A stretch of DNA of 64,000 bases. It comes from Burkholderia plantarii. Its GTDB lineage: Bacteria > Pseudomonadota > Gammaproteobacteria > Burkholderiales > Burkholderiaceae. The position numbers and the translations under genes are program-made. Every line of letters begins with the position of its first letter. The stretch's first letter is position 1. This document shows positions 28,260 through 43,010 of the stretch, in pieces. The stretch is taken from positions 1,798,001-1,862,000 of the forward strand of contig NZ_CP007213.1 of the NCBI RefSeq assembly GCF_001411805.1, written 5' to 3'. A model generated the notes under the pieces. The model was not told the DNA's origin, did not search any database, and saw only the letters and a list, made by a program, of their open reading frames with translations.

Positions 28260-28361
28260 CGGTCAATCTCCAGGGGTAGTCTCTGGGGTAGCTAGCGAAG
28301 GATAGACGTCAATTCGTGGCGGCTGTAAAGCGATCAAGCCATTCAGTATTAAAATGCCGCC

Positions 28362-29144: not shown

Positions 29145-29240
29145 CCGCGCCTGCAAAAAACGGGCTGTAGCCGCGAATTTCATTGCTGGCATCTACTTCG
29201 GCGTATGCACCAGCGGCAGGTATCCGGCTAGGACTGGTCT

Positions 29241-29304
29241 GGGTCGCCGGCGGGCTGCACCGGACGCCGCCCGGCGAATTCTGGCCAGTTTACGACGTTC
29301 GACA
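29241..29304 (+). repeat. Island intergenic element, copy G
   Basis: It begins GGGTCGCCGGCGGGCTGCAC, contains a CCGGACG/CGCCCGG-type GC core, then TTCTGGCCAG and an ACGTTCGAC end. It lies to the right of the AraC gene. With copy H it shares GCTGCACCG and CCGGCGA-TTC-GGC. Confidence 0.5.
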
Positions 29305-29367
29305 ACGTAGCCAGGATCGCTGACAATCGGAAGCGGGTCATTTCGTATTAACGCGCTGAATTCGAAG

Positions 29368-29916
29368 ATGAAAAAGAAGAACTGGAAATTCGCTGCCTGC
29401 GTCGTGTTTTCTCAGCTAACGGGGTGCGCAAACGATATTGCACAGACGACAAGCAATGTGCCAACGATACCCCTCGAGCAAGTAATCAACCATTGCTTGG
29501 CGCGCGTTGCCCCGCAAGGAGGGCCGACGCCTACGCAAAACAACCTCACTGCATCGCAATGGATCGGCTATGTCACTTGCGCCATGAGTAGCAATTTGCG
29601 AGTCGACGTCGATCAGGTTCACGAGAACCCGGCGGCAACTGTCGAGATCCTCATAGGCAATGATGGGGCTATCAACTCCGTGAAGCGCTTGCGGACGAGT
29701 GGCAATGAAGCTTGGGATCGTGCTGTCGACATATCGATCAGAGCTGCACCTCCTCTGGCGCCAGCGCCTACTGCACGCTATTTTTCGAAGTTGGATCTGA
29801 TTTTCACGCCATTTTCACAAGGTGGCGGGATGAGTCGTGGCGCAACTCTGACAGGGCAAAGTCATTGGTCGATGCACCAATGCACGACGGCCGGCGGTGC
29901 CGTAGCATGCAATTAG
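29368..29916 (+). CDS. Putative lipoprotein with TonB/TolA C-terminal-like domain
   Basis: This 182-residue protein has a lipoprotein-type signal (FAACVVFSQLTGC, Cys about residue 20). Its C-terminal half resembles the TonB/TolA C-terminal fold: VEILIGNDGAINSVKRLRTS, then AWDRAVDISIRAAPPLAP and a final strand KLDLIFTPF. Classical TonB or TolA would have an inner-membrane anchor and a Pro-rich spacer, which are missing. It is therefore an unusual lipoprotein relative. No transporter or ExbB/D gene is near. Codon use is less GC-biased than the backbone. Confidence 0.65.
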   Translation: MKKKNWKFAACVVFSQLTGCANDIAQTTSNVPTIPLEQVINHCLARVAPQGGPTPTQNNLTASQWIGYVTCAMSSNLRVDVDQVHENPAATVEILIGNDGAINSVKRLRTSGNEAWDRAVDISIRAAPPLAPAPTARYFSKLDLIFTPFSQGGGMSRGATLTGQSHWSMHQCTTAGGAVACN

Positions 29917-29973
29917 CTTCTGAGTTAGATCGAGTATGAGTGGCTGCTTTCTGGAATTACGGATGACTGTTCG

Positions 29974-30042
29974 GGGTCGCCTACCGCCGGTCGAGCTGCA
30001 CCGAGCGCCAACCGGCGACTTCCGGCTGTTATGAGCCATTCG
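29974..30042 (+). repeat. Island intergenic element, copy H
   Basis: It begins GGGTCGCCTACCGCCGGTCG, contains GCTGCACCGAGCGCC and CCGGCGACTTCCGGC, and ends GAGCCATTCGAG. It lies to the right of the TonB-like lipoprotein gene. Its plan matches copy G. Confidence 0.5.
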
Positions 30043-30048
30043 AGATTG

Positions 30049-30543
30049 CTACCGGATTGGGCGTTGCAAGACGATGAGTTCGCCGGTAAACCGCGGACTG
30101 CTTTCGCGTCGAATCTCCGCGAAGCCCTCGCGCTGCCAGAATGAATAGGCGCGAGGATTGGTTGAAACAACTGCAAGTTGCGCCGTGCGGTAGCCCCATT
30201 CGCCCGCCATCTCAATCAACAACCCTAATGCGGCCTTCCCGTAGCCTCGCCCCTGATGTGCCTCGGAGAAAAGCATCAGGCCGATCCATACGCAGTCGCC
30301 ATTTGGATACGAACGGATTACATCCGCGCAGCCGATCATGTCCCATTCAACATAGAATCCAAACACTGATTTGTGTGCCGCATCTGTGCCCACTGGCTTG
30401 CCGAAGAAGAAGTCGTCGACATCTTCCGTGGAGGGCGGACGACCTTCGACAAGTTCAGTGTAGGCAGGTGCTTCGGTGAAGATGCGTAAGACGCTTGCGC
30501 GGTCGCTGGCCGATTCGTTGGTAAGTGGGAGCGATGTAAGCAT
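30049..30543 (-). CDS. GNAT family N-acetyltransferase
   Basis: This 164-residue acetyltransferase has the acetyl-CoA motif VWIGLMLFSEAHQGRGYGKA and the following AQLAVVSTNPRAYSFWQREG, a standard GNAT core. The N-terminal half (VLRIFTEAPAYTELVEGRPP) is typical of a subgroup found widely as accessory genes. The substrate is unknown. It is encoded on the minus strand, yet the island element (copy C) still lies on its right, upstream of its start. Confidence 0.87.
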   Translation of the reverse strand: MLTSLPLTNESASDRASVLRIFTEAPAYTELVEGRPPSTEDVDDFFFGKPVGTDAAHKSVFGFYVEWDMIGCADVIRSYPNGDCVWIGLMLFSEAHQGRGYGKAALGLLIEMAGEWGYRTAQLAVVSTNPRAYSFWQREGFAEIRRESSPRFTGELIVLQRPIR

Positions 30544-30646
30544 TGTGTAATCGCGGGAGACGAGGAATTTGATTCTAAGCTGGTTGATTCCGCAATGACC
30601 TCATGCATCGTCGCTGCGAACGTCCGCTACATAGAAATGTCGCTTC

Positions 30647-30735
30647 AGGGTCGGCAAGAGAAGCTCGCGCCGAGATCGGGCAGGCCGCTAACGGGTGCCG
30701 GCCGAACTTCCGGGTTCGGCCAGGACGTGACGCTC
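30647..30735 (+). repeat. Island intergenic element, copy C
   Basis: ATGTCGCTTCAGGGTCGG opens the element. It contains the hairpin GCCGAAC-TTCCGG-GTTCGGC and ends TTCGGCCAGGACGTGACGCT. A GAACGTCCGC segment just before it mirrors the CGGACATTC-type ends of other copies. It lies between the GNAT and DHFR genes. Confidence 0.55.
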
Positions 30736-30790
30736 GGCGCCCGCTCCTACATCGTCAGCGATCAACCGGCAGCAAGGGCTGGCTCAACCG

Positions 30791-31300
30791 TCACGACAAC
30801 GTGTCGGTGTGAACGGCGGCACGGCGATAAGTAAAGACGGTGTAGCTGGTCGGACCGCTTACGTCGACCCTTTCTGCGCAATGGAAGTCCGCCGGCAAAT
30901 CTGGAAACGTTGCATCGCCCGTCGGCTCCAAGTCGAGTTCTGTGAGATACACAGTATCTGCATACGGCAAAAACAGGCGATAAATCTGCTCACCGCCTGC
31001 GATAAAAACCTCTTCCCGCGAATCGTTTGCGATGACTTCAAGCGCATCCTGCAGCGTGGTGCATGTCGACACCCGTTCGGCGGCGATAGACTGTCTTCCA
31101 ATCACCAGGACGTCCCGGTTTGGTAGCGGTCGACCTATCGACTCGTATGTCCGTCGTCCCATTAGCACCAGGTGACCTTCGGTCAGTTGGCGAAACCGCT
31201 GCTGCTCTCCCGGCACCCGCCACGGAATGTCGTTGGCCGCGCCGATCACCCGATTTTTCGCCATCGCAGCTATCATTGAAATCGTCTTGCCGTTCAACAT
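30791..31300 (-). CDS. Dihydrofolate reductase, DfrA12-group-like
   Basis: This enzyme reduces dihydrofolate to tetrahydrofolate using NADPH. The 169 residues carry NRVIGAANDIPWRVPGEQ, then FRQLTEGHLVLMGRRTYES and IGRPLPNRDVLVIGRQ, and later VFIAGGEQIYRLFLPYADTV. The IPW-x-PGEQ-x-FR-x-LTEG wording matches, from memory, the trimethoprim-resistance enzymes of the DfrA12/DfrA21 group. It does not match chromosomal FolA, which has a PED/ADL-type segment there. A resistance role is therefore plausible but unproven. It stands alone in the island, flanked by intergenic elements on both sides. Confidence 0.9.
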   Translation of the reverse strand: MLNGKTISMIAAMAKNRVIGAANDIPWRVPGEQQRFRQLTEGHLVLMGRRTYESIGRPLPNRDVLVIGRQSIAAERVSTCTTLQDALEVIANDSREEVFIAGGEQIYRLFLPYADTVYLTELDLEPTGDATFPDLPADFHCAERVDVSGPTSYTVFTYRRAAVHTDTLS

Positions 31301-31401
31301 TCGCTCATCTCGCTGTGGGTTTTTCAGCCTATTCTAATGGCGACCAAAGTAGGCGGTGACGAGTGGCGGCCGTCGAGGAAACCGAAGGGTTGGCGTATAT
31401 C

Positions 31402-31468
31402 GGGTTGCGACTGCCGCGCGTTGAAGGGCGGCAGTCGGCCGAGATCGGCAAGAAAGGGACATTCGACA
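31402..31468 (+). repeat. Island intergenic element, copy I
   Basis: It begins GGGTTGCGACTGCCGC, has the inverted pair CTGCCGC/GCGGCAG, then TCGGCCGAGATCGGCAAG and the end GGGACATTCGACAT. It lies to the right of the minus-strand DHFR gene. Confidence 0.5.
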
Positions 31469-31526
31469 TGGATGCTTGGATCGCCGACAATCTGGTTCCT
31501 TGACGGGAACCCGCGACGCCGCACCG

Positions 31527-32042
31527 ATGGCAACAAGATTCGACATTGTGAAGTTTCGTCCCTTGACGATACTTATCGCTTCCATTGGCTTATGGAGCAT
31601 TGTCATACCGATGCTGCAGCCAGCGCCCCCGTCCAAGCTTTCGGACCTATGCCACTTGAATGCGTCTGGCGATCCGGCAATAGACAAAGTGGCTGCCGGG
31701 CGCGTATCGCACATTACAAATGCCTACTTCATCCAGGAGGCAGGGGACAACGCCACGCTTCTGTCGCGTTGTGCCAAGGGTGGTTGTGGTCCACTCGATC
31801 CGAGACTTTTCGAGGCGCGGGTCGGTTCCCCAGTACGTGCAGAGTTCTGCGGCGGCCATCCGGTAGAAGTGACGATTTCCGGTACCGAAGTATTTCGATT
31901 GACTCAGCAGTATCTCGATGGTCAAGTTGCCGCGACTCGACGAAGTAGTAAGTGGATGATCCAATTCGGAGCTTTCTGGTGTGGCTTATGGTTGCTTCTG
32001 CAAATGATCGCAGAGATTCGATTCAAGCGATTAAATACATAG
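31527..32042 (+). CDS. Hypothetical membrane protein
   Basis: This is an unrecognised protein of about 171 residues. One membrane segment lies near the N-terminus (LTILIASIGLWSIVIPML) and another at the C-terminus (FGAFWCGLWLLLQMIAEI). A polar loop of about 110 residues between them holds several Cys (DLCHLNAS; SRCAKGGCGPLD; EFCGGHP). The loop is probably periplasmic with disulfides. ATG 31527 is chosen over an upstream start that would overlap the intergenic element. Confidence 0.65.
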   Translation: MATRFDIVKFRPLTILIASIGLWSIVIPMLQPAPPSKLSDLCHLNASGDPAIDKVAAGRVSHITNAYFIQEAGDNATLLSRCAKGGCGPLDPRLFEARVGSPVRAEFCGGHPVEVTISGTEVFRLTQQYLDGQVAATRRSSKWMIQFGAFWCGLWLLLQMIAEIRFKRLNT

Positions 32043-32118
32043 CTACGCACCCGGGCAGCTAGTCGTCCACTCGTGGCTAACTTGATCGGTTCGAATGATT
32101 GCCTTCGAGATCGTCCTC

Positions 32119-32175
32119 AGGGTCCGCTACCGCGGACCGCATCAGGCAGCGGTCGGCTGCGGACACTCGGCCGCC
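32119..32175 (+). repeat. Island intergenic element, copy E
   Basis: TCAGGGTCCGCTACCGCGGACC gives a hairpin directly at the 5' end. It is followed by GCAGCGGTCGGCTGCGGACACTCGGCCGCC. It lies to the right of the preceding membrane protein gene. Confidence 0.5.
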
Positions 32176-32236
32176 ATAGATTACGTTATAGAAATCAGAT
32201 GCTCTTGTTGAGCGACCTTTTGAGAAACAATCACAT

Positions 32237-32890
32237 ATGCAGCGATTTCGAAAGTATATATTTACATTGCTTTCCCTGAGCCTTGTCGGCAGCTTCGTGA
32301 TAGCGATTGCTTTGCAACCGCTCGTATCTGCCACCTTTGCAACGAGAGAGTTCTCTCAGTGTATCAATCCGCTCGTGGTTGCCGTAATCAGCGTAATTGG
32401 CCTGATCGTCTTGGCAACACTTTTATGGCTCGCGCTCTGGCGTTCGCCATCGTCTTCGTCTGCGAAGCCGCCATTAGCTATGCTAGAAGCGGCCGGACTG
32501 CCAGCGCTGCCGTCGCAAGTCATTGTCTTCGTTTTGGTTTTTGGCGCCCTTAACTGCCTGACTTTCTGTTTTCTTATTGGCGATATTGAAGCGCTTGTAG
32601 TCAGATTATCGGCCAAAAGAGATGTGTTTTACGAAGAAACTGTTAAAGAAACATATCAGAAAGGATGTGGCAATGCGGTTGAATGGATCGACTCGTTCGT
32701 TGGCGGCAGCGTGACCGTTTGCTTGACCTCCCCATTATTTACAAAGCACGGCGGTCCGATCAGCAGATTGTCGATTGTGCATTCGCTGCGTGGCCCATTC
32801 GGCATACGTGTTCTGACGGTTCATGCGGTCGATTCCGAGCCGGGCCGTGTCGATTTTTCTCAAATGCAGACAAATCCGGCCACGCACTGA
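32237..32890 (+). CDS. Hypothetical membrane protein
   Basis: This is an unrecognised 217-residue protein with three predicted membrane helices: residues about 7-27 (FTLLSLSLVGSFVIAIAL), 45-68 (VVAVISVIGLIVLATLLW) and 94-115 (VIVFVLVFGALNCLTFCF). A soluble C-terminal portion follows. The GC content is clearly low for this genome. No neighbour suggests a role. Confidence 0.65.
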   Translation: MQRFRKYIFTLLSLSLVGSFVIAIALQPLVSATFATREFSQCINPLVVAVISVIGLIVLATLLWLALWRSPSSSSAKPPLAMLEAAGLPALPSQVIVFVLVFGALNCLTFCFLIGDIEALVVRLSAKRDVFYEETVKETYQKGCGNAVEWIDSFVGGSVTVCLTSPLFTKHGGPISRLSIVHSLRGPFGIRVLTVHAVDSEPGRVDFSQMQTNPATH

Positions 32891-32919
32891 ACCGGCTCGA
32901 TTGCCGATTGCCTGATTTC

Positions 32920-32976
32920 AGGGTTAAATCTACCGTGGCATGAGACGCCTGTCGGCCAGAAGGCGGCATTCGATGC
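32920..32976 (+). repeat. Island intergenic element, copy J
   Basis: TTTCAGGGTTAAATCTACCG opens it. TGTCGGCCAGAAGGCGGCATTCGATGC closes it, matching the common TCGGCCA and GCATTCGA ends. It lies between the membrane protein and VOC genes. Confidence 0.5.
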
Positions 32977-33041
32977 AGGGAGTAGAATCGCCGACGATCG
33001 GACGGCGACGCCGCGCCGAGCTTTCTTCTAGGAGTGACGCA

Positions 33042-33425
33042 ATGGACGAAGCGCTTACCGACCTCAGTTCTTTCTCTTTCGTTCTCGCAGTACCAGATAT
33101 CGATGCCAGTGCCGCGTACTTTCGCGACGCGCTTGGTTTCCGATTGGATTGGCCTGATGGCATCGGGTGGAAGTTGGCAACGAGAGGAGGCGTGCGCGTC
33201 ATGCTTGGCCATTGTCCCGACGCGATGCGGCCATCGGCAACAGGCGACCACAACTATTTCGGTTACGCCCATGTGACGAATGCCGACGCGCTTCATGAAG
33301 AACTTGTCGCTCGGGGTGCCATCATCCTGCAACCTCCGACCGACAAACCGCATGGCATGCGCGAATTTCTCGTGGGCACCCCAGACGGTCATCGACTGAT
33401 GATCGGCCAAGACCTGTCCAAATGA
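33042..33425 (+). CDS. VOC family protein (glyoxalase/bleomycin-resistance fold)
   Basis: This 127-residue single vicinal-oxygen-chelate unit carries SFVLAVPDIDASAAYFRDAL, GFRLDWPDG, the DHNYFGYAHVTNADALHEEL strand-helix, and the closing REFLVGTPDGHRLMIGQ with a metal-site Glu. Family members include glyoxalases, dioxygenases and drug-binding resistance proteins; the function is not determined. AGGAG 7 bases before the ATG at 33042 decides the start over the longer frame. Confidence 0.9.
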   Translation: MDEALTDLSSFSFVLAVPDIDASAAYFRDALGFRLDWPDGIGWKLATRGGVRVMLGHCPDAMRPSATGDHNYFGYAHVTNADALHEELVARGAIILQPPTDKPHGMREFLVGTPDGHRLMIGQDLSK

Positions 33426-33463
33426 AGGGCCGTTGTGGTGTGAGACCGCTCACTGGCTGAAAC

Positions 33464-33545
33464 GGGTCGCATGCATCTATTTGCCCGCAGGCCGGCTGCA
33501 TATGCGGTACGCATGAGGCGCTGATCGGCCAAGAGCGGTCAGTCG
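33464..33545 (+). repeat. Island intergenic element, copy L (divergent)
   Basis: ACGGGTCGCATGCATC opens it. An inverted pair ATGCATCTATTTGCC/GGCTGCATATGC and the end GATCGGCCAAGAGCGGTCAGTCG follow. It is less similar than other copies, but has the same position to the right of a gene and the same TCGGCCAAGAGCGG-type end. Confidence 0.35.
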
Positions 33546-33599
33546 ATAGCAGGCTCCAGATCGTCAACAATTCAACGCCGCATATCGTTCAAGAATCTC

Positions 33600-33989
33600 A
33601 TGTATCGGATACGGAACTCGCGTTTCTTTATCTCAGAATGTCTCTCAGAGCCAGTCTTCGTATTGGAAGGAGCCGCGTCGGAATGGCTCTTTGCCTCGGG
33701 GTTCTGGACTCGGGTTAACCGCTTGATGGGGACGATGTACGATCAGTACGAAGAGGACGAGGCGTCTCCCGCGACTCTCGAGCAGATTGCATCACGAATG
33801 CGTTGCCAGATTCGTGAGCTTGAAATGGGCGACGAAGAAATGATTCGTTTCACGTGTGGGTGGTTCAGTACAGGCGCAGCTTGTGTCCTCGAAACCCCGA
33901 GGGCCGTCCTCGTATCGCAACTAATTTTGCTCCAAAGTTTTCTGGAGCGGATGGCTGAAAGCGGCACTACTCTTGAGTTAAGCCTTTGA
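33600..33989 (+). CDS. Hypothetical protein
   Basis: This is an unrecognised acidic protein of 129 residues beginning MYRIRNSRFFISECL. It is rich in Glu, Met and hydrophobics, with a probable helical C-terminus (LILLQSFLERMAES). It has no signal or membrane segment. It is followed after 13 bp by another small gene on the same strand, so the two are probably an operon. Size, acidity and setting resemble immunity or accessory proteins, but nothing specific is recognisable. Confidence 0.55.
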   Translation: MYRIRNSRFFISECLSEPVFVLEGAASEWLFASGFWTRVNRLMGTMYDQYEEDEASPATLEQIASRMRCQIRELEMGDEEMIRFTCGWFSTGAACVLETPRAVLVSQLILLQSFLERMAESGTTLELSL

Positions 33990-34002
33990 AGGCAACACTG
34001 CC

Positions 34003-34350
34003 ATGAACATTGAAACAATGGCCGCTCGATGTGAAGATCAAAAGTTGAGTTTGCCTGACGTTGATACCGCATGCCAAGCCGCGAAAATGTCAAGGCTGGA
34101 ATTTTTTGACGAGCTGGCCCGCTGGCTTGCCATCGAGTTCCTCGAAGGCCGGCGCGATTTCACGTTTTGCGATGGCGTCGTCAACAACATGATGCCGCTC
34201 GCAGATTGGAACCTCAGTGATTTTGCGTGGTCGATTTTCCATGCGTTCGACAATGGCGAGTTCTACCATAGGGAGGATTCGCGAGATGTCAATCCCGTGG
34301 AGAAATACACAAAACCGATGCTGGCGCGAGCGTTAGCGGAACTGAAATGA
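34003..34350 (+). CDS. Hypothetical protein
   Basis: This is an unrecognised acidic protein of 115 residues with WNLSDFAWSIFHAFDNGEFY near its C-terminus. That pattern is common in small single-domain accessory proteins found beside polymorphic-toxin or contact-dependent genes. This is a resemblance only. It lies between the 129-residue gene (13 bp upstream) and a 548-residue gene (51 bp downstream), all on one strand with no island element between them. Confidence 0.55.
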   Translation: MNIETMAARCEDQKLSLPDVDTACQAAKMSRLEFFDELARWLAIEFLEGRRDFTFCDGVVNNMMPLADWNLSDFAWSIFHAFDNGEFYHREDSRDVNPVEKYTKPMLARALAELK

Positions 34351-34401
34351 TCGCTTACATGGAATGGGTACGAACGGCCGAAGATCGGAGAAGGCAACTA
34401 A

Positions 34402-36048
34402 ATGGCTAAGAAGAAAATGAATCGGCTGAGACTGCTGTTCCGACAGCCGGTCCCGTCGCCTGCGCCGTCCATATCGGACGGATTCCCGTTGCCTTGGTCA
34501 GAGGGGCGGCCTAGTATCTACCGCTTTCTGTCGGATTTTGCGGTTGCGGATGACCAATGTCTTTCCGACGTGGCTGCGACGTTGCCTGATGAGGAGTTAC
34601 TGTCGATCCGAAGTGGCACACAACTGCGATGGGCACCCGGCGCAATGGACGGCGCATTCGGTCATCACGCGGCGAGCGATGGCAGCACACAGGTCGAGCG
34701 GGTAGTTGCCATGCTTGTGTCGGCGGCTGACGCTCGATCGGCTGAAGCGGTCAAGAATCTCTACGACCTGATTGCCGGGGATGAAGCACTGCGCCTTGTC
34801 GATCCTTTGCTGACGTCGTTGCGGCAATTGCGGCCAACGGACCCCGAGCGTTTGCATGCCTTGGCTCACTGGCTCGCCAGCGAAAGTCCGGATAGAGGCG
34901 CGGTCAAGATTGGTATTGCACTGCTCGGGATGTTTCAACCGCCTCGGGACACGGCGTTGCTTATCACTCTTGGTTTGCATGAGGAGTTCACGCTCTATGT
35001 AGCAGTGGCCCTCGGAAACACGTTGCCAGCCCCGGACAGGGAGGATGCCTGGTGGTCGCTGGCCAGACGAGTGAACGGATGGGGACGCATCCATTTAGTT
35101 GAGCGTCTGGCAAAGACTGAACGAAGCGATATAAAGGCCTGGATGCTGCGTGAGGGCTACAAGAATTCGGTGATGATCGAATACTTGGCCTATCCATGCG
35201 CAGTCGGCGGCGATTTGCTGCGCGCGCTGCGGGAGAATGACGTCGACGATGCATTGCTCAACGGCGCCGGTGATATGCTGCAGGCGCTGATCGCAGGCGG
35301 CCCGGCGCAGGACATGCGCGATTACACTGAGGGTGCCGAGGCCACTAGCCTGTATTTGGGTCACCTGGCGCGACGCGTGTCGGCCCGACTCGATGACTAT
35401 CTGGTCGTCTCGGACATCGCAGGGTTTGCTACGGATGAGGAAAGACCTTGGGAGGTATTGGGAGCGCGCGGTTGGACCGCAGAGCGTAGGGCGCACGTCG
35501 CTGCATTGGCCAGCGCCATCGTCGCGGACTCGAGATGGCCAGCGCTGGCCGCTGAAAGCCTTGGCGCACCCGACGAGGCAGCTTTCTGGACGGCAGCAAC
35601 AGTGGCGGAGCGCTTGGGGTTAGATCCGTGGGAGGTGCGCTTCGATCGTCAGCGCGCCGGCCAAGGGAGCCAGTGGTTTTATCTGATGCGGGATGCTGAT
35701 ACGCAGCGCGCCGATCGCGTGGTCACCTTGGCGATGGAGCAACTGTCCTTGAATGATCTGGCGACTGGAGCGGCGGATGAGTCCGGTCTTGGGCCTGGGT
35801 TTGCACAACAGACCGTGCTCGGTGCGATCCTCCAGGAACTGGGGCGCTTTCCTTGCAAAGGCTGGCCTCTCGTTGAGGCAGGTCTTCGGAGCCCGGTGGT
35901 CAGGAACCGGAACATGGCGTTGAAGACCTTGGATACTTGGGGCAAGGAGAAATGGCCGACGGCTGCCGAGGCTGCACTCAATAACGCCCTCTGCGCAGAG
36001 CCTAACGACCGGGTGCGAGAGTACATCACTCAGGTGCTTTCTCGTTAA
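34402..36048 (+). CDS. HEAT-repeat-like alpha-helical protein of unknown function
   Basis: This 548-residue soluble protein is made largely of helix pairs. Repeating units such as ALLITLGLHEEFTLYVAVAL, HLVERLAKTERSDIKAWML and SPVVRNRNMALKTLDTW suggest HEAT/ARM repeats. The Lys/Arg-rich N-terminus (MAKKKMNRLRLLFRQP) is followed by a Pro/Ser linker. No catalytic motif is seen. It is the last of three same-strand genes not separated by the island element, so they may act together. The function is unknown. Confidence 0.7.
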   Translation: MAKKKMNRLRLLFRQPVPSPAPSISDGFPLPWSEGRPSIYRFLSDFAVADDQCLSDVAATLPDEELLSIRSGTQLRWAPGAMDGAFGHHAASDGSTQVERVVAMLVSAADARSAEAVKNLYDLIAGDEALRLVDPLLTSLRQLRPTDPERLHALAHWLASESPDRGAVKIGIALLGMFQPPRDTALLITLGLHEEFTLYVAVALGNTLPAPDREDAWWSLARRVNGWGRIHLVERLAKTERSDIKAWMLREGYKNSVMIEYLAYPCAVGGDLLRALRENDVDDALLNGAGDMLQALIAGGPAQDMRDYTEGAEATSLYLGHLARRVSARLDDYLVVSDIAGFATDEERPWEVLGARGWTAERRAHVAALASAIVADSRWPALAAESLGAPDEAAFWTAATVAERLGLDPWEVRFDRQRAGQGSQWFYLMRDADTQRADRVVTLAMEQLSLNDLATGAADESGLGPGFAQQTVLGAILQELGRFPCKGWPLVEAGLRSPVVRNRNMALKTLDTWGKEKWPTAAEAALNNALCAEPNDRVREYITQVLSR

Positions 36049-36645
36049 ACTCCGACTTGTGCTCGCGAGGACAGGCAACGCTGATGGCGCTCGTCGAGAG
36101 TTGGATCGCTTTCTCGAAGGGCGTTCAGCGGAAGACCCAGTCTCCATACGGCTCGGCGAGATGCTGGCTAAAGCTACCGGCATGGCATGATCGCGAACAA
36201 AGAATCCTTCGTGTGGATGGCGGGCGACTGCGCCAATGAACATGCGCCGAGTGTCCGCTTGCAGGAGATCTGACTGTCTCTTCAGGGTCGATCTGCGCCG
36301 GTCGCGCATGACAGGGCGGCGGCCGGCCGTGTCCGGCCAGGAACAGACGATCGTAGCTCGCAGACGATCTCTGTCCGAACGTCGGCGCCCCTGTCTGCAA
36401 CGGTCATTCGAATCCGACGACACATCTCCGCCAAACGTTTCCACAGTTGATCATGTCAATTGAAGCATTCGATATGGATAAGATAGCGTTGCAGGCATAA
36501 TCGCGGGTACAAGCACTTGTCTGAAGCGCACGGCCATGGCCGGGGTGGGCGCTGGCAACGCCCATTTATCCGTGGTAGCCGATATGAAGGCGGAGCAACA
36601 TCATTCGGCATAAACTCTCGTTTGCTCGTTCGAATCAACGGAATC
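36049..36645. other. Long spacer containing intergenic element D
   Basis: Nearly 600 bp contains no recognisable protein. It holds island element copy D (36284-36352). The final 170 bp form an open frame continuous with the MurG-like gene, but this stretch does not resemble any MurG N-terminus. Confidence 0.5.
36284..36352 (+). repeat. Island intergenic element, copy D
   Basis: TGTCTCTTCAGGGTCG opens it, a GC core with GGCCGGCC follows, and GTCCGGCCAGGAACAGACGATC closes it. A GTGTCCGCTT segment lies about 30 bp before. The close match of TTCAGGGTCG and GGCCAGGAAC to copy A is the clearest cross-copy similarity outside the A/B pair. Confidence 0.55.
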
Positions 36646-37722
36646 GTGACGCAACTCCAAGGAAAAACGTTTGCGGGCAAGAGGCTCGCATTCACCGGTG
36701 GCGGCTCGGCTGGGCACGTTGTCCCTTTGCTCCCATTGATGGAAGATGCTTCGGCACGCGGGGCAGAGGTCCGATACATGGGCTCCGTGGCAGGCATCGA
36801 GAAATCGATCATCGCCGCGACGGGCATACCCTACGTCGCTTTGCACACGACAAAGCTGAGACGGTCATTCACCGTCAGCAACCTCGCAATCCCTTGGCGC
36901 CTCGTACTCGGCATACGCGATGCGATCGGATTCTTCAAACGATACGAGCCGGATGTACTGATTTCAAAAGGCGGGTTTGTATCCGTGCCGGCAGTTATCG
37001 CAGCGTGGCTAACCAGGGTACCTATCGTGTCCCATGAGTCAGATTTGACTACGGGCCTCGCAAATCGGATAGCGTTGCCGTTCTGTACCTCAATGTGTAC
37101 CGCGTTGCCGCTTTCCCTTGTCAAAGGACGAATTACGAGCAAGCACGTATTTACCGGGATTCCGATCCGGCGCGAATTCGTTAGCGCGAAGAAATCAGTT
37201 GTTTCTATACCCTGTAAGCCCACGTTACTTGTGTTCGGTGGCAGCCTGGGCGCAAGTGCGATAAATACCGCGATCCGGGCCGCCCTTCCTTCGTTAGCGG
37301 GCTATCGCGTTGTGCATATATGCGGACGGGGAAACGTTGACACGAATTACGACGCCCCCGATTACATTCAGCACGAGTTTGTGACTGAAGGAATGGCCGC
37401 GCTGATTCAAGAGGCGGAGGTCGTTCTCTGCCGTGCCGGCATGACTTCTATCCTTGAGCTTCTTTATCTGGAAAAGCCGGCAGTGCTGGTGCCGCTTGGG
37501 AAAGCCGCGAGCCGCGGCGACCAGCTTGACAACGCGAAGCTATTCGAGGACTTGGGCATCTTTCAAACGTTGCACGAAGATGCGATCGCAACAGACCTCC
37601 TACACAAACTCAAGGTTGCGCGGGAACGACGCATCGAATCGCAGCACGCGATTCGAGCGCTCGGCCTCCAATTCAGTACCGCTCCAATATTACGTGTTCT
37701 GGCCGACGTAATGCACGTGTAA
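36646..37722 (+). CDS. MurG-like glycosyltransferase (UDP-GlcNAc transferase paralogue)
   Basis: MurG adds GlcNAc to lipid I to form lipid II at the inner face of the membrane. This copy has the N-terminal glycine loop LAFTGGGSAGHVVPLLPL, DVLISKGGFVSVPAVIAAW, the second glycine loop LLVFGGSLGASAINTAI and the UDP-binding segment VVLCRAGMTSILELLYL. An AVLVPLGKAASRGDQLDNAK motif follows (canonical forms have P-x-A...DHQ-x-NA). The GTG at 36646 gives 358 residues, the usual MurG length; a TTG at 36517 would add 43 unmatched residues. No division/cell-wall cluster surrounds it and the composition is foreign. It is therefore an acquired paralogue whose true acceptor may differ. Confidence 0.85.
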   Translation: MTQLQGKTFAGKRLAFTGGGSAGHVVPLLPLMEDASARGAEVRYMGSVAGIEKSIIAATGIPYVALHTTKLRRSFTVSNLAIPWRLVLGIRDAIGFFKRYEPDVLISKGGFVSVPAVIAAWLTRVPIVSHESDLTTGLANRIALPFCTSMCTALPLSLVKGRITSKHVFTGIPIRREFVSAKKSVVSIPCKPTLLVFGGSLGASAINTAIRAALPSLAGYRVVHICGRGNVDTNYDAPDYIQHEFVTEGMAALIQEAEVVLCRAGMTSILELLYLEKPAVLVPLGKAASRGDQLDNAKLFEDLGIFQTLHEDAIATDLLHKLKVARERRIESQHAIRALGLQFSTAPILRVLADVMHV

Positions 37723-38129
37723 AGGGGCGCCCTAATGCGGTTGAACTGTAAGCGCCTCACGCCGACCGTTCGCGATCGCTCGCTCGCGGATGGCAAGCTA
37801 TTGATAGCGCGTTGATGAGTACTCGGTAGACGTTGCGGAGATCAGGTTATCGCTGAGAGCGGAGCGGATCGCGTGGCCAACTTGGCGGCCACATCCCAAG
37901 GCAGCGGTTCATCGATGCAGTTGACCGATGCTCATTGATCACGTCGCGCATCGCTGATGCCTGTCTGGCGATGGGGCTGACCATCGATCTAGCGAGGGCC
38001 GAACAACGGAACCGGCGCGTCGACGAAGATCGCGATCTGTGCGGCGTCTGTTCGCGACTTGCTAGCGTAAGCAAACTCCCGCTCCACCAACACGTCCTAT
38101 ACTGCGAGTTTTTTGGGGAGGAGAGATCA
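37723..38129. other. Intergenic stretch, no gene seen
   Basis: About 400 bp contains only short frames with no recognisable product. One of them opens into the Nudix gene but lacks similarity to it. The last 20 bp contain the strong GGGGAGGAG ribosome site of that gene. Confidence 0.5.
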
Positions 38130-38570
38130 ATGCGCGCCCCGTTTCAGATCCTTGCCATTCCTTATCGTGTCGGCTGTAAAGGATCGACGTTCGCCGCCCT
38201 CAAACGTTCTGACGATGGACATTGGCAGGGTGTCGCTGGCGGCGGAGAAGTTGGTGAAACTCCGTTCCAGGCGGCAGTCAGGGAATGCCAGGAAGAAGTC
38301 GGCGTTGGCTCACGCAGCAGGGTTCGATCGCTAAAAAGTCGGGCGTCGATCCCTGTTGAGCACTTCACCGACCGCGGACATTGGCCGACTGACATGTTTG
38401 TCATCCCCGAATATTGCTTCGGGCTGGACTGCACAGACAAGGAGCTTGTTCTATCAAGCGAACACGTGGACGTGCGTTGGGGAACATATCGAGAGATTAA
38501 TGCGCTACTGCGCTGGGATTCAAACAAGACAGCTCTCTGGGAACTCAACTGTCGTGTCACCAAGGAGTAG
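38130..38570 (+). CDS. Nudix hydrolase
   Basis: This 146-residue protein carries the Nudix box GGGEVGETPFQAAVRECQEE followed by VGV. The box gives the Mg-binding Glu residues for cleaving nucleoside diphosphates linked to another group. The surroundings (FAALKRSDDGHWQGVAGGGE; DVRWGTYREINALLRWDSNK) fit dihydroneopterin-triphosphate or dATP pyrophosphohydrolase-like members. GGGGAGGAGAG 7 bases before the ATG fixes the start. The substrate is not determined; a link with the DHFR gene of the same island through folate is only speculative. Confidence 0.9.
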   Translation: MRAPFQILAIPYRVGCKGSTFAALKRSDDGHWQGVAGGGEVGETPFQAAVRECQEEVGVGSRSRVRSLKSRASIPVEHFTDRGHWPTDMFVIPEYCFGLDCTDKELVLSSEHVDVRWGTYREINALLRWDSNKTALWELNCRVTKE

Positions 38571-38996
38571 TCTGCCCTTGCTTCGGACGGTGAACGTAGA
38601 TACAAACCTATCGGCCGTCGTGTTGCTCGCTGTAGACGACCCAGAACCGGTTGAACTCGACTTGGTCCAAAGACGTTTGGTGCTAGTTTGGGATCGCTCA
38701 TTCGCAAAGGCGAGCGGCCGTTGTCAGTTTTGGAACGGGCATCACAGGAATGAAGCTGTGATCGTCGCTTCAGGGTCGCCATCTGCCGTCGGCGTCCGCA
38801 GCCTCCAACGAGGCGCCGCGACGGTCGTCGTCGGGCCGAGTTCGGCCAGGAACGGGCATTGGTCACCGGCGGGTAGATGTCCCCTCATGAACGAGGAAAG
38901 GCCCCTTGACGCGGATCAAGTGCCCGGGAGGCTACTGACCTGAATGCGCCGCCACCCTTTGTAGTTGGTCTCACCCTACAACTATTTTCAGTTCAG
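38571..38996. other. Spacer containing intergenic element A
   Basis: About 425 bp between the convergent Nudix and APH-like genes contains no recognisable gene. It holds copy A of the island element at 38773-38848. Confidence 0.55.
38773..38848 (+). repeat. Island intergenic element, copy A (76-bp near-identical pair with copy B)
   Basis: GGGTCGCCATCTGCCGTCGG begins a segment whose first 42 bases are identical to those at 40175. The remainder differs by one indel and two substitutions to the shared TTCGGCCA. Immediately upstream is GTCGCTTCA and downstream GGAACGGGCATTGG. This is the best-preserved element. Confidence 0.75.
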
Positions 38997-39974
38997 TCAG
39001 CGAGTATCCACTACGGATGGCGTGGCTCGGAAGCGTTCGAATGTCAGCCTGGTGCGTTGCGCTGTTGTCTCCCAAAGAGCCTCGGTGAGCGTATTAAATC
39101 GCGCGAGGGCCAATAAGATGCGCAACTGGTGGAAAACTACACACAGGGGCAGCGACGCGCTCTCTAGCGCATTGAGCGGTCGCTTGACCTGGTAGGCAGA
39201 GAGGAACGATTCCCAGAGCGCTGCAGCGTCAGACAGGTCTCGGAGATGAAGCGGCAGAGCGCCAAGATCGAAAATGAGCGCACCCTGGCCGCACTCGTCG
39301 AAGTCAAAGAACGTCACCGTCTCGCTCTCGATTCGAGCGTTACCTGTCCAGACGTCGCCATGACATGCCCCGAGCGGTAGCCGGCGATTTGCCAGCTCGG
39401 TCATCAGGTCGATGCCTTCGCGCAAGACCTGTTCGGCGATTCTCTCGCCAATCGGCCCAACCCGCCGCAACGCTTCGATTGCTTCATAGCCAATGCAGAC
39501 AGGATCGAGCGTCCTCAAAAATGTGGGCTTGAAGTTCGCCGATGCATTGTGAAGCTTTGCCAAGGCGCTACCGAGTCGCTGCATGTCTTCAGAGTCGAGA
39601 CAAGGTTCGCGACCTTCGGCAGCGGTAAATAGGCAACCCACTCGGGCCTCACCTTCGAGGATGAAGCGGGTAAGCGCGTTGCCTTCGACGTTTCGCACGG
39701 CCTTCGATACGGCAACGTCCTGTTTTTGTGCTAGTACATCAACTAGCGCAAGCTCATATCCGATCTCTTCCAGTGAGCGGCCCAGCGGCCTGTAGAGCCG
39801 GAGGTAGAAGCTTCCATCATCTGTCGTGAGGCGGTAGGTCCGGTTAATTCCGTCGACGATAAGTTTCATCTCCAGAAAATGACGGCCGTAGCAATTGGCG
39901 AGCGCGGCTAGCGCGACGTCATGTAGTTGAATCGCATCTGCTGGCGGATCTTTCCGGCCACCTGAAGTAATCAT
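38997..39974 (-). CDS. Aminoglycoside-phosphotransferase-fold kinase
   Basis: This 325-residue protein has the APH/choline-kinase/homoserine-kinase-II fold. The ATP-site strand is YRLTTDDGSFYLRLYRP, with the Lys position replaced by Arg. The catalytic loop is LPLGACHGDVWTGNARIES and the Mg-binding Asp is in VTFFDFDECGQGALIFDLG. Substrates in this fold include aminoglycosides, choline, homoserine and protein. The sequence does not single one out, and its SrkA-like wording is equally compatible with a stress kinase. It is flanked on both sides by the near-identical elements A and B. Confidence 0.85.
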   Translation of the reverse strand: MITSGGRKDPPADAIQLHDVALAALANCYGRHFLEMKLIVDGINRTYRLTTDDGSFYLRLYRPLGRSLEEIGYELALVDVLAQKQDVAVSKAVRNVEGNALTRFILEGEARVGCLFTAAEGREPCLDSEDMQRLGSALAKLHNASANFKPTFLRTLDPVCIGYEAIEALRRVGPIGERIAEQVLREGIDLMTELANRRLPLGACHGDVWTGNARIESETVTFFDFDECGQGALIFDLGALPLHLRDLSDAAALWESFLSAYQVKRPLNALESASLPLCVVFHQLRILLALARFNTLTEALWETTAQRTRLTFERFRATPSVVDTR

Positions 39975-40427
39975 CAGGGATACCTTGTCGTTTCAATGCT
40001 CAATGATCTCTTGGCAGCCGAGAAGATTGCAAGGGCTCCGAATTTGCCTGGCCCGACATACCTTTCATTGGTGATCGGATGCACCCAAGGAGTTTTTTCT
40101 GGTTCAACGAAAACGAACGACCGGTTTCGGAGAGTGACACGGACATTCCCCGGACATTGACGGCGGGCCGTTGTGGGTCGCCATCTGCCGTCGGCGTCCG
40201 CAGCCTCCAACGAGGCTGCCGCGACGGTCATCGTCGGGCCGCGTTCGGCCAACCGCAGGCGTTCATCAATTTCTGAACTCCGACGTACGAATGTCTGCGT
40301 CGCGACCGGTTGCAGACATTCTCCCGAATCAGAGGACCGTACAAGCGTTGCATCCGAGTCGGCCTGACGGTGCCCATGCGCGGCTCGCAAGCTTTCATAT
40401 CTCGTGCATCAGTTCATTCGCCTGGTA
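39975..40427. other. Spacer containing intergenic element B
   Basis: Between the APH-like gene start and the LysR gene stop lies about 450 bp without a recognisable gene. It contains element copy B (40175-40251). Two short CGGACATT segments also occur just ahead of it, at about 40140-40160. Confidence 0.55.
40175..40251 (+). repeat. Island intergenic element, copy B
   Basis: This is a near-identical 77-bp direct repeat of copy A, 1.4 kb apart and on the same strand, flanking the APH-like gene. It ends TTCGGCCAACCGCAGGCGTTCATC, so similarity fades exactly after the TTCGGCCA shared by the family. Confidence 0.75.
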
Positions 40428-41315
40428 CTAAGCCGCTCTGCTCAGGGCATTGATCGCGACCCGTAGCCGCGCGGGGATAACCGCCGCCGTTGCCCAGAGC
40501 AGGTGGACATCATGGTGGCGTGCAGGGAGGTGGGGTAGGAGCTGAACAAGCGTACCCGACGCGAGCGCATCCTCGACCAGCCAGTCGGGCAACCACGCGA
40601 CCCCTCGGCCCGAGACCGCCGCGTCAAGGATGACCCCGAGATCGGCAACGCGGAAGCGCGAACGTGGCTCGACCAGTTCCAGTCGTCCGTCCCCGGTCGG
40701 GAAAATCCAAGGCTCGCTCCATCCGTCGCGATGGTAGACGAGCGAGTCGTATCGGCCAAGGTCGTCGAGCGAATTGGGCATGCCCAGCCGCGCAACCAGC
40801 GACGGTGCCGCGCACAGGACTGTCGCGTGCCGGCCGACAGTGTCCGACGACAGGCCAGCCGCCGTACCGATCGATCCGCTCCTGACGGCCAGATCATATC
40901 CCTCCTCGACAAGAGACACGCAGCGATCCCGCAGATCAATTTCGATTGTCAGCTCCGGATTCTCATCTGCGACACGCAGCAGCAGTGGTGCGACTTTCAG
41001 TCGGCCGTAGAGCACGGGCATCGTGATTCTTAGCACGCCGCTGGCGCGTTCGCGCCCGGCATCCAGCCACGCGGCGCCCTCGCGCAGTTCCTCCGTGGCT
41101 CTCACGCATCGAGAGAGAAAGGCGCGGCCCTCATCGGTGAGCAACTGTGCGCGTGTCGTTCGGTTGAACAGGCGAACACCGAGGCGATCCTCGATGCGCG
41201 CGATCGCCTTGCCGACCGCCGAGCGCGAAAGGTGCAATTGCCGGCCGGCGGCCGCAAAGCTCCCCGCCTCTGCTGCGGCGACAAAAGCAGGGACGTCTTT
41301 GAAAAGATCAATCAC
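40428..41315 (-). CDS. LysR family transcriptional regulator
   Basis: This 295-residue regulator has the winged helix at residues 1-60 (FVAAAEAGSFAAAGRQLHLS; AVGKAIARIEDRLGVRLFNR) and a periplasmic-binding-like effector half (SGVLRITMPVLYGRLKVAPL). It belongs to the large CrgA/DsdC-like group. It is divergent from the DUF1579-like gene across 123 bp, so it may control that gene. The GC is higher than in neighbouring island genes, closer to the backbone. Confidence 0.92.
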   Translation of the reverse strand: MIDLFKDVPAFVAAAEAGSFAAAGRQLHLSRSAVGKAIARIEDRLGVRLFNRTTRAQLLTDEGRAFLSRCVRATEELREGAAWLDAGRERASGVLRITMPVLYGRLKVAPLLLRVADENPELTIEIDLRDRCVSLVEEGYDLAVRSGSIGTAAGLSSDTVGRHATVLCAAPSLVARLGMPNSLDDLGRYDSLVYHRDGWSEPWIFPTGDGRLELVEPRSRFRVADLGVILDAAVSGRGVAWLPDWLVEDALASGTLVQLLPHLPARHHDVHLLWATAAVIPARLRVAINALSRAA

Positions 41316-41438
41316 GTTGTATCCCCAGAGGCTACATCAGGGCGAAATATTATCGTTACCGTCGCCAGACAGGCGCGGTCTACCATCGGATGCATGGATA
41401 TTTCTTTTCGTTCCCTTAACAGCCGCAAGGAGATTCGC

Positions 41439-42029
41439 GTGTACTCACCTCGTTTCCTTCTTCCTCTCGTGATGTCGCTGGCCACCCTCGGCATCTTCTT
41501 GACCGTCCCGGTTTCGGCTCAACAGAGTGAGCAAGCGAACGTAGCGCGGGAGACGACAGCCCTGTCCAGTCAGCAAGGAAAGTGGATCGTTGTCGAGACA
41601 TTCTGGGTTCGCCCGGATGCGCCGCCAGTAGTCACCAAAGGGCTGGTCGCCGAAAGGCGCATGGTGGGCCGCTTGCTGGAAGAGCGTCTGTATGCTGTGA
41701 ACAGCAGAGAGCCCGTGCGTATCGATTATCTTGGTTATGATGCGATCGCGGGGCAGTGGTGCTATGTCTCCATCGACACTCGCGTGCCCGTTCCACCGAT
41801 GTCGGCATCGAGCTTCGAACGCGACACTCCTGACCGCATCACGCTGCGTTTCGAGCCGTTTGCCGCGCCACCGATCGTGCCTGAATGGTCAGGACGATTG
41901 CTTCGAATGGAACAGGTGATCGCGCGCAAAGGCCTCGACCACGAGACGAAGGACCAATACTTCATTCTGGCGGATGGAAGCGGTACCCGATGGCTCGCGC
42001 ATCGGTACGACTACCAGCGCGAGCGTTGA
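41439..42029 (+). CDS. Secreted DUF1579-like protein
   Basis: This 196-residue protein has a signal peptide (FLLPLVMSLATLGIFLTVPVSA). The mature part matches the DUF1579 layout: GKWIVVETFWV, VTKGLVAERRMVGRLLEER, then DYLGYDAIAGQWCYVSIDTR and ITLRFEPF. The family binds or processes unknown small molecules. AAGGAG with 6-base spacing before GTG 41439 strongly decides the start over the ATG at 41394. It is divergent from LysR. A frameshifted membrane-protein gene overlaps its end. Confidence 0.75.
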   Translation: MYSPRFLLPLVMSLATLGIFLTVPVSAQQSEQANVARETTALSSQQGKWIVVETFWVRPDAPPVVTKGLVAERRMVGRLLEERLYAVNSREPVRIDYLGYDAIAGQWCYVSIDTRVPVPPMSASSFERDTPDRITLRFEPFAAPPIVPEWSGRLLRMEQVIARKGLDHETKDQYFILADGSGTRWLAHRYDYQRER

Positions 42030-42339
42030 ACGAACAGATCTACCAATCCCTCGTGCCCGCGATGCGTGCCGGCCAGTGGGTGGCCATCGTTATCGCCAAC
42101 CTGCTGCTAAACGCGAGTGGGCACGGTGAATGGTTTGGCGCGGCGGTGATTCTGATCGTCGCCTGCATTTTCTTTCGTTGGCCTATTATGGTTCCGCCCC
42201 AATGTGCTTCATGCTTACCGGTTTGGCCTTGGCGTTAGTTGCACTCTCGTATCCCTGGTTCGGCACGCGTCAACCTGGCTTCCCTACGGGCGCCTTCGCC
42301 ACCGGCGTGATTTTGTGGGTTGCCGCCCTGGCCAGTTGA
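41990..42339 (+). pseudogene. Frameshifted small membrane protein gene
   Basis: One frame encodes two hydrophobic segments (WVAIVIANLLLNA; WFGAAVILIVACIFFRW) and stops at 42238. A second frame, entered near 42180, continues with two more (CFMLTGLALALVALSYPWF; AFATGVILWVAALAS) to the stop at 42339. Together they would give a coherent four-helix protein of about 115 residues. The reading therefore suggests a single indel around 42170-42200, or a sequencing error there. The product is not recognised. Confidence 0.5.
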
Positions 42340-42469
42340 GCGGCGCAAAGTCCATAGAGACTTTTCATGGCCCGTTGCGCAAAGCATCGCCGCTCGGCCA
42401 CAATCGGCCATTCGACATCTGGGTTCAAATTGCCGACAATTGAGCACGTCCGACCTAAAGAGAACTCGT

Positions 42470-42796
42470 ATGCCGGCTGATCGCGATTTCCACTCGAGTT
42501 GCAGCAAGACCTCGGAGTATCTTCGCGAGGTGCGAGCTTGCCTCTCCGAAACTGCCGAGGGAGTGTGTGCGGATGAGATCGCCGAATTTGCGGAATTCTT
42601 GAACCACAACGAGTTCGAACTGGCGCTGGACGCCATCGAAGCCTCATTTAGGAAGGGAGACGATGCGAACTGGCGTGTGCTGGAGTATATGGCCATGGCA
42701 GCACTGAGCATGGAGTTGGTAGATCGCCAAAGGACGTACGATCAATGGCTAACAAAAGCGCGAGGCTGGAATTACAGGACGGTTCTACCACGATAG
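42470..42796 (+). CDS. Hypothetical protein, MafI-immunity-like
   Basis: This is an acidic helical protein of 108 residues. VCADEIAEFAEFLNHNEFEL, then ALDAIEASFRKGDDANWRV and YMAMAALSMEL, resemble the layout of MafI-type immunity proteins (the hNEFelAL motif). I am unsure of this. No toxin gene is next to it, so it would be an orphan immunity gene. The ATG at 42470 is preceded by CTAAAGAGAACTC. Confidence 0.55.
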   Translation: MPADRDFHSSCSKTSEYLREVRACLSETAEGVCADEIAEFAEFLNHNEFELALDAIEASFRKGDDANWRVLEYMAMAALSMELVDRQRTYDQWLTKARGWNYRTVLPR

Positions 42797-42841
42797 GTTA
42801 CAAGCCGAATGGCCGGCTTACGTCGAATTGATGGATCGCTC

Positions 42842-42912
42842 AGGGTCGGCTGCCACCGACCGAGCCCAGGCGAGGAGACGTGGGGCGACTTCCGGCCACA
42901 AACAGCCGATCA
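42842..42912 (+). repeat. Island intergenic element, copy F
   Basis: TCGCTCAGGGTCGGCTGCCACCGACC has an inverted GGTCGG/CCGACC pair. GACTTCCGGCCACAAACAGCCGATC closes it. It is the last copy before the right IS fragment and lies to the right of the preceding gene, like the others. Confidence 0.5.
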
Positions 42913-42929
42913 TCAAAGGCGATTACCCC

Positions 42930-43010
42930 TCGAACGACGTTTCCCAGTTCATCATTGCTCGCGCCATGGATACAGAAGTTTCGATAATGGCAAAAAATTT
43001 ATCGACACGG
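42930..43010 (-). mobile_element. IS701-family terminal fragment (inverted copy)
   Basis: Read on the minus strand this is CCGTGTCGATAAATTTTT and then the transposase start ATGGCGCGAGCAATGATGAA. It is almost identical to 23504-23586 but points the other way. Only about 80 bp remain; after TCGTTCGAGG the similarity stops. It marks the right end of the island. The 284 bp up to the next gene show no recognisable coding sequence. Confidence 0.8.

Follow-up and report, generated by a model that had tools for sequence, protein, structure and literature searches.

Hairpin-bearing elements between the genes of a Burkholderia plantarii island: probable recombination sites of an integron-like gene-cassette system

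An island in Burkholderia plantarii (contig NZ_CP007213.1, positions 1,798,001 to 1,862,000; this whole stretch of 64,000 nucleotides is called the window here, and coordinates are counted from its first letter) carries, beside most of its genes, members of one family of intergenic elements with two inverted arms around a variable core. In our view these elements are probably, at a probability of roughly 70%, the recombination sites of a self-contained, integron-like system of gene cassettes. Somewhat less firmly, we favour the view that this would be a second, independent cassette system, widespread in Pseudomonadota and reaching Nitrospirota and Nitrospinota, whose 208-residue tyrosine recombinase, encoded in the hairpin loop of its own site, would cut at either arm, leaving cassettes and cores as two interleaved mobile sets.

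A sequence-only reading of the window had pointed to related + strand segments between the island genes, and this was borne out by a covariance model (R3) built from 103 elements of same-genus relatives and of Paraburkholderia sediminicola, the window and its genome being left out. R3 took the place of two models, R1 and R2, whose E-values in the window are circular because they had been built with window copies; one of the 103 training elements is an opposite-strand duplicate, and all 103 were aligned by means of R2, hence by a model that included window copies. R3 finds 10 window elements (E 5.5e-21 to 1.6e-5), all within 27.4-42.9 kb and all better-scoring on the + strand, while weaker - strand matches over several of them follow from their near-palindromic shape. 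The best match beyond 27-43 kb has an E-value of 0.016. Nine of the 11 copies listed in the sequence-only reading are significant with R3, and those at 32119 and 32920 are not. In the consensus of 108 elements, GNCNGNTNNGGGTCG forms the 5′ arm; beyond the core comes the 3′ arm, TTCGGCCANNANCNGNC (also given as CGGCCANNANCNGNC), followed by RTTCG. The window copies, with the places at which homology to other genomes breaks off, are as follows.

26516-26597, + strand: weak element, possible left end of the array (R2 E 0.021; R3 E 0.068)
27425-27493, + strand: element additional to the sequence-only list (R3 E 1.4e-6); homology to L090 (G061) ends within it, at 27441, and B. glumae plasmid homology starts at 27504
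29229-29304, + strand: element with GGGTCG at 29241 (R3 E 1.4e-6); B. glumae plasmid homology (94.5%) ends at 29252, 6 nt past GGGTCG
29962-30045, + strand: element with GGGTCG at 29974 (R3 E 7.6e-12); 53 bp at 98% identity to a copy in G002
30636-30739, + strand: element with GGGTCG at 30648 and CGGCC at 30717 (R3 E 4.9e-12); 93% identity to a copy in G012 and 89-90% to two copies in G027
31385-31468, + strand: element with a degenerate 5′ arm (R3 E 7.3e-10; folding z -4.1 on the + strand)
32110-32172, + strand: possible weak element, the copy at 32119 (R3 E 0.32, not significant)
32882-32975, + strand: possible weak element, the copy at 32920 (R2 E 0.37; R3 E 0.41 over 32907-32975, not significant); common in full to a homologous segment of G015
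33452-33548, + strand: element with GGGTCG at 33464 and CGGCC at 33526 (R3 E 1.6e-5); Paraburkholderia plasmid homology (L018, 87%) begins at 33526
36273-36356, + strand: best-scoring element, with GGGTCG at 36285 and CGGCC at 36334 (R3 E 5.5e-21); homology to G063 (96-97%) ends at 36290, the final base of GGGTCG
38761-38865, + strand: element (R3 E 2.2e-10) with 83 bp 94% identical in B. glumae plasmids; 38773-38849 has a 100% identical copy in its own genome, at C1:2409253
40163-40268, + strand: element whose core resembles that of 38761 (R3 E 6.4e-7), with 42 nt identical to the 38773 copy
42356-42417, + strand: weak element (R3 E 0.13); homology to G019 (85%) starts at its TCGGCCA, at 42394
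42831-42915, + strand: element with GGGTCG at 42843 (R3 E 8.9e-8); homology to G006 and G019 ends at 42849, 1 nt past GGGTCG

Gene plus element had been taken for a modular cassette, and the ends of shared segments do coincide with elements. When 74 stretches were compared with one another by blastn, 147 shared segments between 150 and 3000 bp long were obtained; with three duplicate-record pairs removed from the count of segment ends, and weak elements added by hand to the element list, 54 of 383 distinct ends lie inside an element, where 4.7 are expected from element coverage. The typical right end of homology is GGGTCG or a position a few bases from it, and the typical left end is TCGGCCA or a position just after it. 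The unit of a gene with the element on its right did not hold, as breakpoints lie mostly inside the element, at the inner edges of the arms; thus each cassette end would carry one arm, and the core between is often exchanged. Cassette X, of about 500 bp, illustrates this in six contexts (L093, L109, L127, L144, L091 and L102) at 93-98% identity. Its right end is exactly GGGTCG in five of them, continued by five different sequences, and the sixth diverges earlier. On the left, three contexts share CGGCCA, two variable bases and AACGGCCGTTCGA, preceded by three different cores, and the other three have other DNA, which L127 and L144 have in common. For shared segments whose end lies within an element of both partners, the partners agree on the side in 23 of 23 cases and on the orientation with respect to the array in 20 of 20. 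This pattern indicates that exchange is directional and takes place at either arm, with the core not firmly tied to either neighbour. In these comparisons the DNA between two sites, one or two genes on either strand, recurs as a unit in unrelated contexts; likewise cores, recombinase cores included, recur with complementary ends and with their orientation kept.

Direct repeats are substrates for RecA-type recombination, and ordinary homologous recombination between dispersed repeats might shuffle the arrays with the elements as passive partners, the more so as some cores are nearly identical (38773 and 40175). Yet joined elements often differ across the core, so that only short motifs are common at the joints, and in cassette X the joints of L109 and L102 run from GGGTCG straight into DNA where the model has no match. 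We therefore regard this explanation as improbable.

The two arms are inverted repeats with equal spacing, and their outer part is conserved mainly at alternate bases. GGTCG:CGGCC is paired in 93-97% of cells. Pairing in the inner stem reaches about 80%, and 6 of its 7 pairs show changes on both sides; the true pairing register surpasses every slid register in percentage paired and in covariation. A U-G pair is kept in the GGTCG:CGGCC stem in 95 of 107 elements. As single-stranded DNA, the + strand folds better in 83 of the 108 elements (p 9e-12), and RNAalifold found almost no consensus structure in the first alignment. It is likely, to judge from these patterns, that the hairpin matters; the strand asymmetry of folding is at most suggestive of a recombination that acts on a folded single strand. 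Core length ranges from 22 to 73 nt, with a median of 43 (86 elements with both motifs exact), and classes near 28, 43, 53 and 64 nt can be discerned in alignment A5, whose subfamilies are not independent. By eye, a second copy of the arm motif (GAATGnCCGCTTT.GG.AAATCTGA-like) lies about 29 bp before several 5′ arms (window 36249-36272, L210, L214 and L248), as if it were an accessory binding site at the right end of the cassette. A short conserved box (approximately ATCGYCGACAATC) is seen 20-30 bp past the 3′ arm in several copies (window 31470-31492, 32980-32998, 33555-33571 and 42425-42440; L211 and L214), and is possibly a promoter or a second protein site of the cassette.

GC-rich hairpins and a conserved U-G pair are also what RNA features of transcripts, such as terminators, would present, in which case the breakpoints would be a side effect. 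In the window, however, the strand of the elements follows the array and not the adjoining gene, and the consensus has no T-rich tail. Moreover, Rfam gave a single match over window 24000-46000 (E 4.6, below the gathering score), and none above chance. An RNA feature thus appears very improbable to us.

A recombination system other than the integron had been suspected from the sequence, and a recombinase that is not IntI is indeed associated with the elements. Weak matches to proteins encoded at eight integrase loci of the own genome led to a 208-residue tyrosine recombinase encoded within element arrays, its gene lying between the arms. It is found in element stretches of a same-genus genome, of an Oxalicibacterium metagenome-assembled genome (MAG) and of Lysobacter gilvus, and damaged copies occur in a second same-genus genome and in P. 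sediminicola. Pfam detects the tyrosine-recombinase catalytic domain alone (PF00589, residues 41-192), at 67.6-73.5 bits in three proteins against a cut-off of 27.1, and has no match to a 98-residue piece in L180. Among 31 sequences R59, K87, H182 and Y191 are invariant, and H156 and R159 are at least 90% conserved. XerA/XerC are nearest in NCBIfam, and the integron-integrase model TIGR02249 reaches 22-26 bits (E 1.2e-4 to 6.2e-6) against a cut-off of 265. The AlphaFold model has a mostly confident catalytic fold (mean pLDDT 82) and a disordered N-terminus (residues 1-20 mostly <50), and Foldseek ranks Cre and XerA at the top.

The recombinase family comprises at least 7999 sequence clusters. 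At E <= 1e-30 it occurs in 43 of 299 genomes of the phylum, spread over 36 of 154 genera, and at E <= 1e-20 it is present in 12 of the 65 genomes of the genus. Of 72,556 plasmid records, 345 carry it at E <= 1e-40, among them records from Escherichia, Klebsiella, Pantoea and Vibrio. The enterobacterial-plasmid recombinase of E. coli plasmid pPGRT46 (L288) stands at about 61% identity. In eight other-host plasmid records with the recombinase (L288-L295), R3 finds no element at E <= 0.05. The own genome has 12 PF00589 matches, all of them away from its element clusters. Open reading frames (ORFs) were also clustered for a protein family at array ends, and the large clusters were uninformative.

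Three observations link this recombinase to the elements. First, within the genus, element counts are higher in genomes that have the recombinase (mean 4.25 versus 2.34, p 0.0036), and an element lies on the strand of the gene in 10 of 18 same-genus recombinase stretches. Second, among 42 recombinase ORFs kept from 75 loci (broken ORFs and those with missing flanks left out, start codons approximate), the arm motif with at most one mismatch is found upstream of 19, mostly 73-90 bp before the start (controls 6 of 122), and the inverted arm downstream of 27, mostly 28-42 bp past the stop (controls 6 of 120); both arms are found at 15 of the 42. In several same-genus copies a hairpin resembling a short core can be seen by eye before the downstream arm. 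Third, homology between recombinase units in different contexts ends exactly at GGGTCG and CGGCCA in the pairs L248/L293 and L212/L248. For L210/L211 (95.6%) the 5′ boundary is GGGTCG, for L210/L212 the 3′ boundary is CGGCCA, and L217/L223 (97.7%) part at GGGTC and, on the other side, ten bases past CGGCCA; in other pairs homology extends tens of bases further. We read the recombinase gene as sitting at the position of the hairpin core, which would make it a coding core of about 725 bp, as compared with about 28-66 nt for the short cores.

The same data bring forward the main rival, a small tyrosine-recombinase transposon whose autonomous form would be the recombinase gene between its inverted arms; the elements would be its non-autonomous miniatures, inserted side by side, and the genes between them only flanking DNA. 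Coding and short forms have the same inverted ends, related recombinase units stand in different contexts with sharp ends in some pairs, and the cores of one subfamily recur at unrelated places. On the other hand, the gene units between the elements are themselves found as units in unrelated contexts where both neighbours differ, gene-specific DNA extends to GGGTCG on one side, and simple insertion would not put nearly all array copies on one strand. We consider this rival unlikely as it stands, although the truth may combine both readings.

The strand agreement of neighbouring elements, which the cassette reading would explain, extends beyond the window. In 65 stretches around matches (60 in other same-genus genomes and five in the own genome), together with the window, neighbouring elements have the same strand in 58 of 60 pairs; this count of 126 elements takes the 150 best of 169 matches, less 24 that overlap, the 19 weakest being left out. 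In P. sediminicola LMG 24238, with 49 model matches (some doubled on both strands), the stretches hold 50 elements at a median spacing of 1.66 kb, and strand agreement holds for 39 of the 44 neighbouring pairs separated by under 12 kb; opposite-strand overlaps, one equal-score place and matches under 21.5 bits were dropped from this count by hand. Single reversed elements were noted inside arrays at L044:12520-12603 and at C1:82503 and C4:448166 of P. sediminicola; since these three also match, more weakly, on the other strand, an inverted core is possible.

The covariance model has matches across the genus and beyond it. At least one match at E <= 0.001 is present in 56 of 65 genomes of the genus. 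A pattern scan with one genome per species gave 21 stretches, in Pseudomonas, Comamonas, Lysobacter, Paraburkholderia, Caballeronia, Oxalicibacterium, Thiohalomonas, Nitrospira, Nitrospina and others, and 13 of 15 searched genomes from these stretches have model matches at E <= 0.01. An order-wide search with R2, at 11 candidates scored per genome, gave matches in at least 14 of 399 genomes. A narrower pattern ending in AGCGGACATTCG matched 1 of 398 genomes of the phylum; a related narrow pattern had no match in viral contigs, and a looser one matched nine of them. By blastn, independently of any model, intergenic plasmid copies with other genes around them were found in Burkholderia and Paraburkholderia at 77-94% identity (B. 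glumae, 83 bp at 94%; B. cepacia, 74 bp at 86.5%; Paraburkholderia, 80 bp at 77.5%), and the same-genus contig G008:C4 shares 12 kb, identical, with a B. cepacia plasmid. Across the 8.08 Mb of the own genome, R1, built with window copies, gave 22 matches at E <= 0.1 in 21 places, forming four clusters and one single copy; as 150 of 23,567 candidates received a score, weak copies may have escaped this count. The exact pattern GGGTCG-gap-CGGCC-gap-CATTCG had two matches in this genome, both outside the clusters, which it missed because the copies vary.

Several results weigh against the reading of the elements as sites of a cassette system. Excision and integration of cassettes are deduced from sequence. 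The right core is common in full in four cassette pairs, and in L093/L102 the left core as well, hence core exchange is not universal. The outer stem is paired in no more than 64% of cells, and the folding exceeds that of shuffled sequences only modestly (mean z -1.56, with several copies no better than these), so the step with a folded hairpin gains little support. As for the recombinase, it has no match in the own genome at E <= 1e-20, which leaves the arrays there orphan, and none in 44 of the 56 same-genus genomes that have elements. Conversely, six of the 18 same-genus recombinase stretches are without an element, a further one (L244) has only a weak one about 10 kb away, and another (L242) has a clear element only on the other strand; moreover, neither arm is found at up to one mismatch in 11 of the 42 recombinase genes. 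Finally, two of the 60 genus pairs disagree in strand, both flanking one element that matches both strands, and so do five of the 44 pairs in P. sediminicola.

If the cassette reading is right, the recombinase, supplied in trans or since lost from the own genome, would bind the inverted arms of the site, which may adopt a single-stranded hairpin fold like that of attC. Strand exchange would take place at the GGTCGA:TCGGCC base of the hairpin, on either arm; in the folded site this junction would be a six-base step between outer and inner stem, which may be compared with the binding-box arrangement of attC. Upon exchange at the 5′ arm the core would stay with the right neighbour, and upon exchange at the 3′ arm with the left one. 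Repeated exchanges would thereby join cassettes in a fixed orientation and reassort cores and cassettes. By analogy, the arrays of the own genome could be likened to an integron array after the loss of its integrase.

The array occupies about 26.5-42.9 kb of the island. In two related genomes the flanks are adjacent: in G015 (L296) about 150 bp separate the flank that ends at 23498 from the one that starts at 43317, and in G014 (L297) the distance is about 80 bp between slightly shorter flanks, whose end and start are at 23492 and 43338. As the backbone is continuous in both, 23499-43316 represents 19.8 kb of extra DNA. The left island gene and the right flank are 125 kb apart in G014; the true backbone flanks are nonetheless adjacent there. 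The left end of the island (23499-24000) resembles by eye part of a transposase gene. The island genes lie on both strands, as had been noted, and the island, its shared cassettes and the genes recognized by Pfam are listed below.

23499-43316: island, absent, with flanks adjacent, in two related genomes (flank identity 84-95%)
26692-27354, + strand: peptidase S51 gene, probably a cassette (PF03575 1.9e-23); a 76% segment in G061 ends in the 27425 element
27504-29252: cassette common to B. glumae plasmids (94.5% over 1749 bp), starting 11 nt after one element and ending inside the next
27600-28259, - strand: PPOX-type flavoprotein gene (Pfam), in the 27504-29252 cassette
28362-29144, + strand: AraC regulator gene (Pfam), in the 27504-29252 cassette
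29368-29916, + strand: TonB C-terminal domain protein gene (PF13103 3.8e-12)
30049-30543, - strand: GNAT acetyltransferase gene (PF00583 1.1e-12); 80% homology to G047 begins just past the CGGC motif of the element on its left
30791-31300, - strand: dihydrofolate reductase (DHFR) gene (PF00186 1.4e-45)
32940-33425, + strand: VOC/glyoxalase family gene (PF00903 5.1e-12), start uncertain, the ORF beginning in a weak element
36517-37722, + strand: MurG-like glycosyltransferase (family 28) gene (PF03033 4.7e-32, PF04101 2e-23)
37935-38570, + strand: Nudix hydrolase gene, start uncertain (PF00293 4.5e-12)
38997-39974, - strand: APH-family phosphotransferase-like gene (PF01636 1.5e-19)
40428-41315, - strand: LysR regulator gene (PF03466 2.1e-29, PF00126 3.1e-19)
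42412-42849: cassette common to G006 and G019 (88% and 85%), bounded by the 42356 and 42831 elements; homology spans 42412-42849 in G006 and 42394-42849 in G019

The ORF at 42320-42796 has no Pfam match. In one B. glumae plasmid (L086:8749-8788) an IS5-family transposase gene starts about 40 bp past the shared cassette, near the site. By their Pfam matches alone, the DHFR (30791-31300), MurG-like and APH-like (38997-39974) genes of the array are common types of antibiotic target or resistance enzymes. If the cassette reading is true, it could explain single-gene islands that have no attC sites, would give a role to a very common family of small recombinases (at least 7999 sequence clusters), and would add a route between species for DHFR, APH-like and acetyltransferase genes.

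The textbook case of single genes being gathered as cassettes is the integron, and from what is generally known of integrons the likeness is considerable: same-strand, hairpin-like sites by single variable genes, cassette mobility, a tyrosine recombinase, and arrays without the enzyme. A degenerate integron array, with attC sites that have lost their integrase, would follow the same logic of same-strand hairpin sites beside single variable genes. Nevertheless, the absence of an attC core, remarked upon in the sequence-only reading, held up in the wider set: the end motifs GTTRRRY and RYYYAAC occur in 1 and 1 of the 108 elements and together in none, no more often than in controls (29, 29 and 1 of 1079). 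The associated enzyme is far under the integron-integrase cut-offs and its gene lies inside a site; we give a degenerate integron the least credence of all the explanations, as a remote one. The proposed system would differ from integrons further in that its recombinase consists of the catalytic domain only and is nearer to Xer than to IntI, and that its boundaries lie on both arms, the core not being fixed to one gene. A cassette keeping a complete site of its own at the right end is not what was found, as the right core differs in cassette X and in other pairs.

Miniature inverted-repeat transposable elements (MITEs) and REP elements are short palindromes between genes, accompanied by an autonomous coding partner whose ends match theirs. 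The short and coding forms described here likewise share terminal inverted repeats. The partner here, in contrast, is a tyrosine recombinase, the arrays have an orientation, and the genes in between are mobile. In the open-access literature, preprints and most subscription journals being outside its scope, we found no account of the sites or of the recombinase family. Simple tyrosine recombinases (Xer, RitA-C, TnpA and integron-like) are reported usually to have a core-binding and a catalytic domain (PMC8138268). The small recombinase shares with them the PF00589 catalytic domain and the full catalytic set R-K-H-R-H-Y, whereas Pfam detects the catalytic domain alone in it and its first 20 residues are mostly disordered. 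The dif (pdif) modules of Acinetobacter plasmids are reported to be single-gene modules bounded by tyrosine-recombinase sites (PMC6449649, PMC13141974), and in this they resemble the cassettes proposed here. The pdif modules depend on Xer sites, whereas the elements, among which no dif consensus was searched for, have two arms around a hairpin, are mostly in one orientation and would be served by a miniature recombinase of their own.

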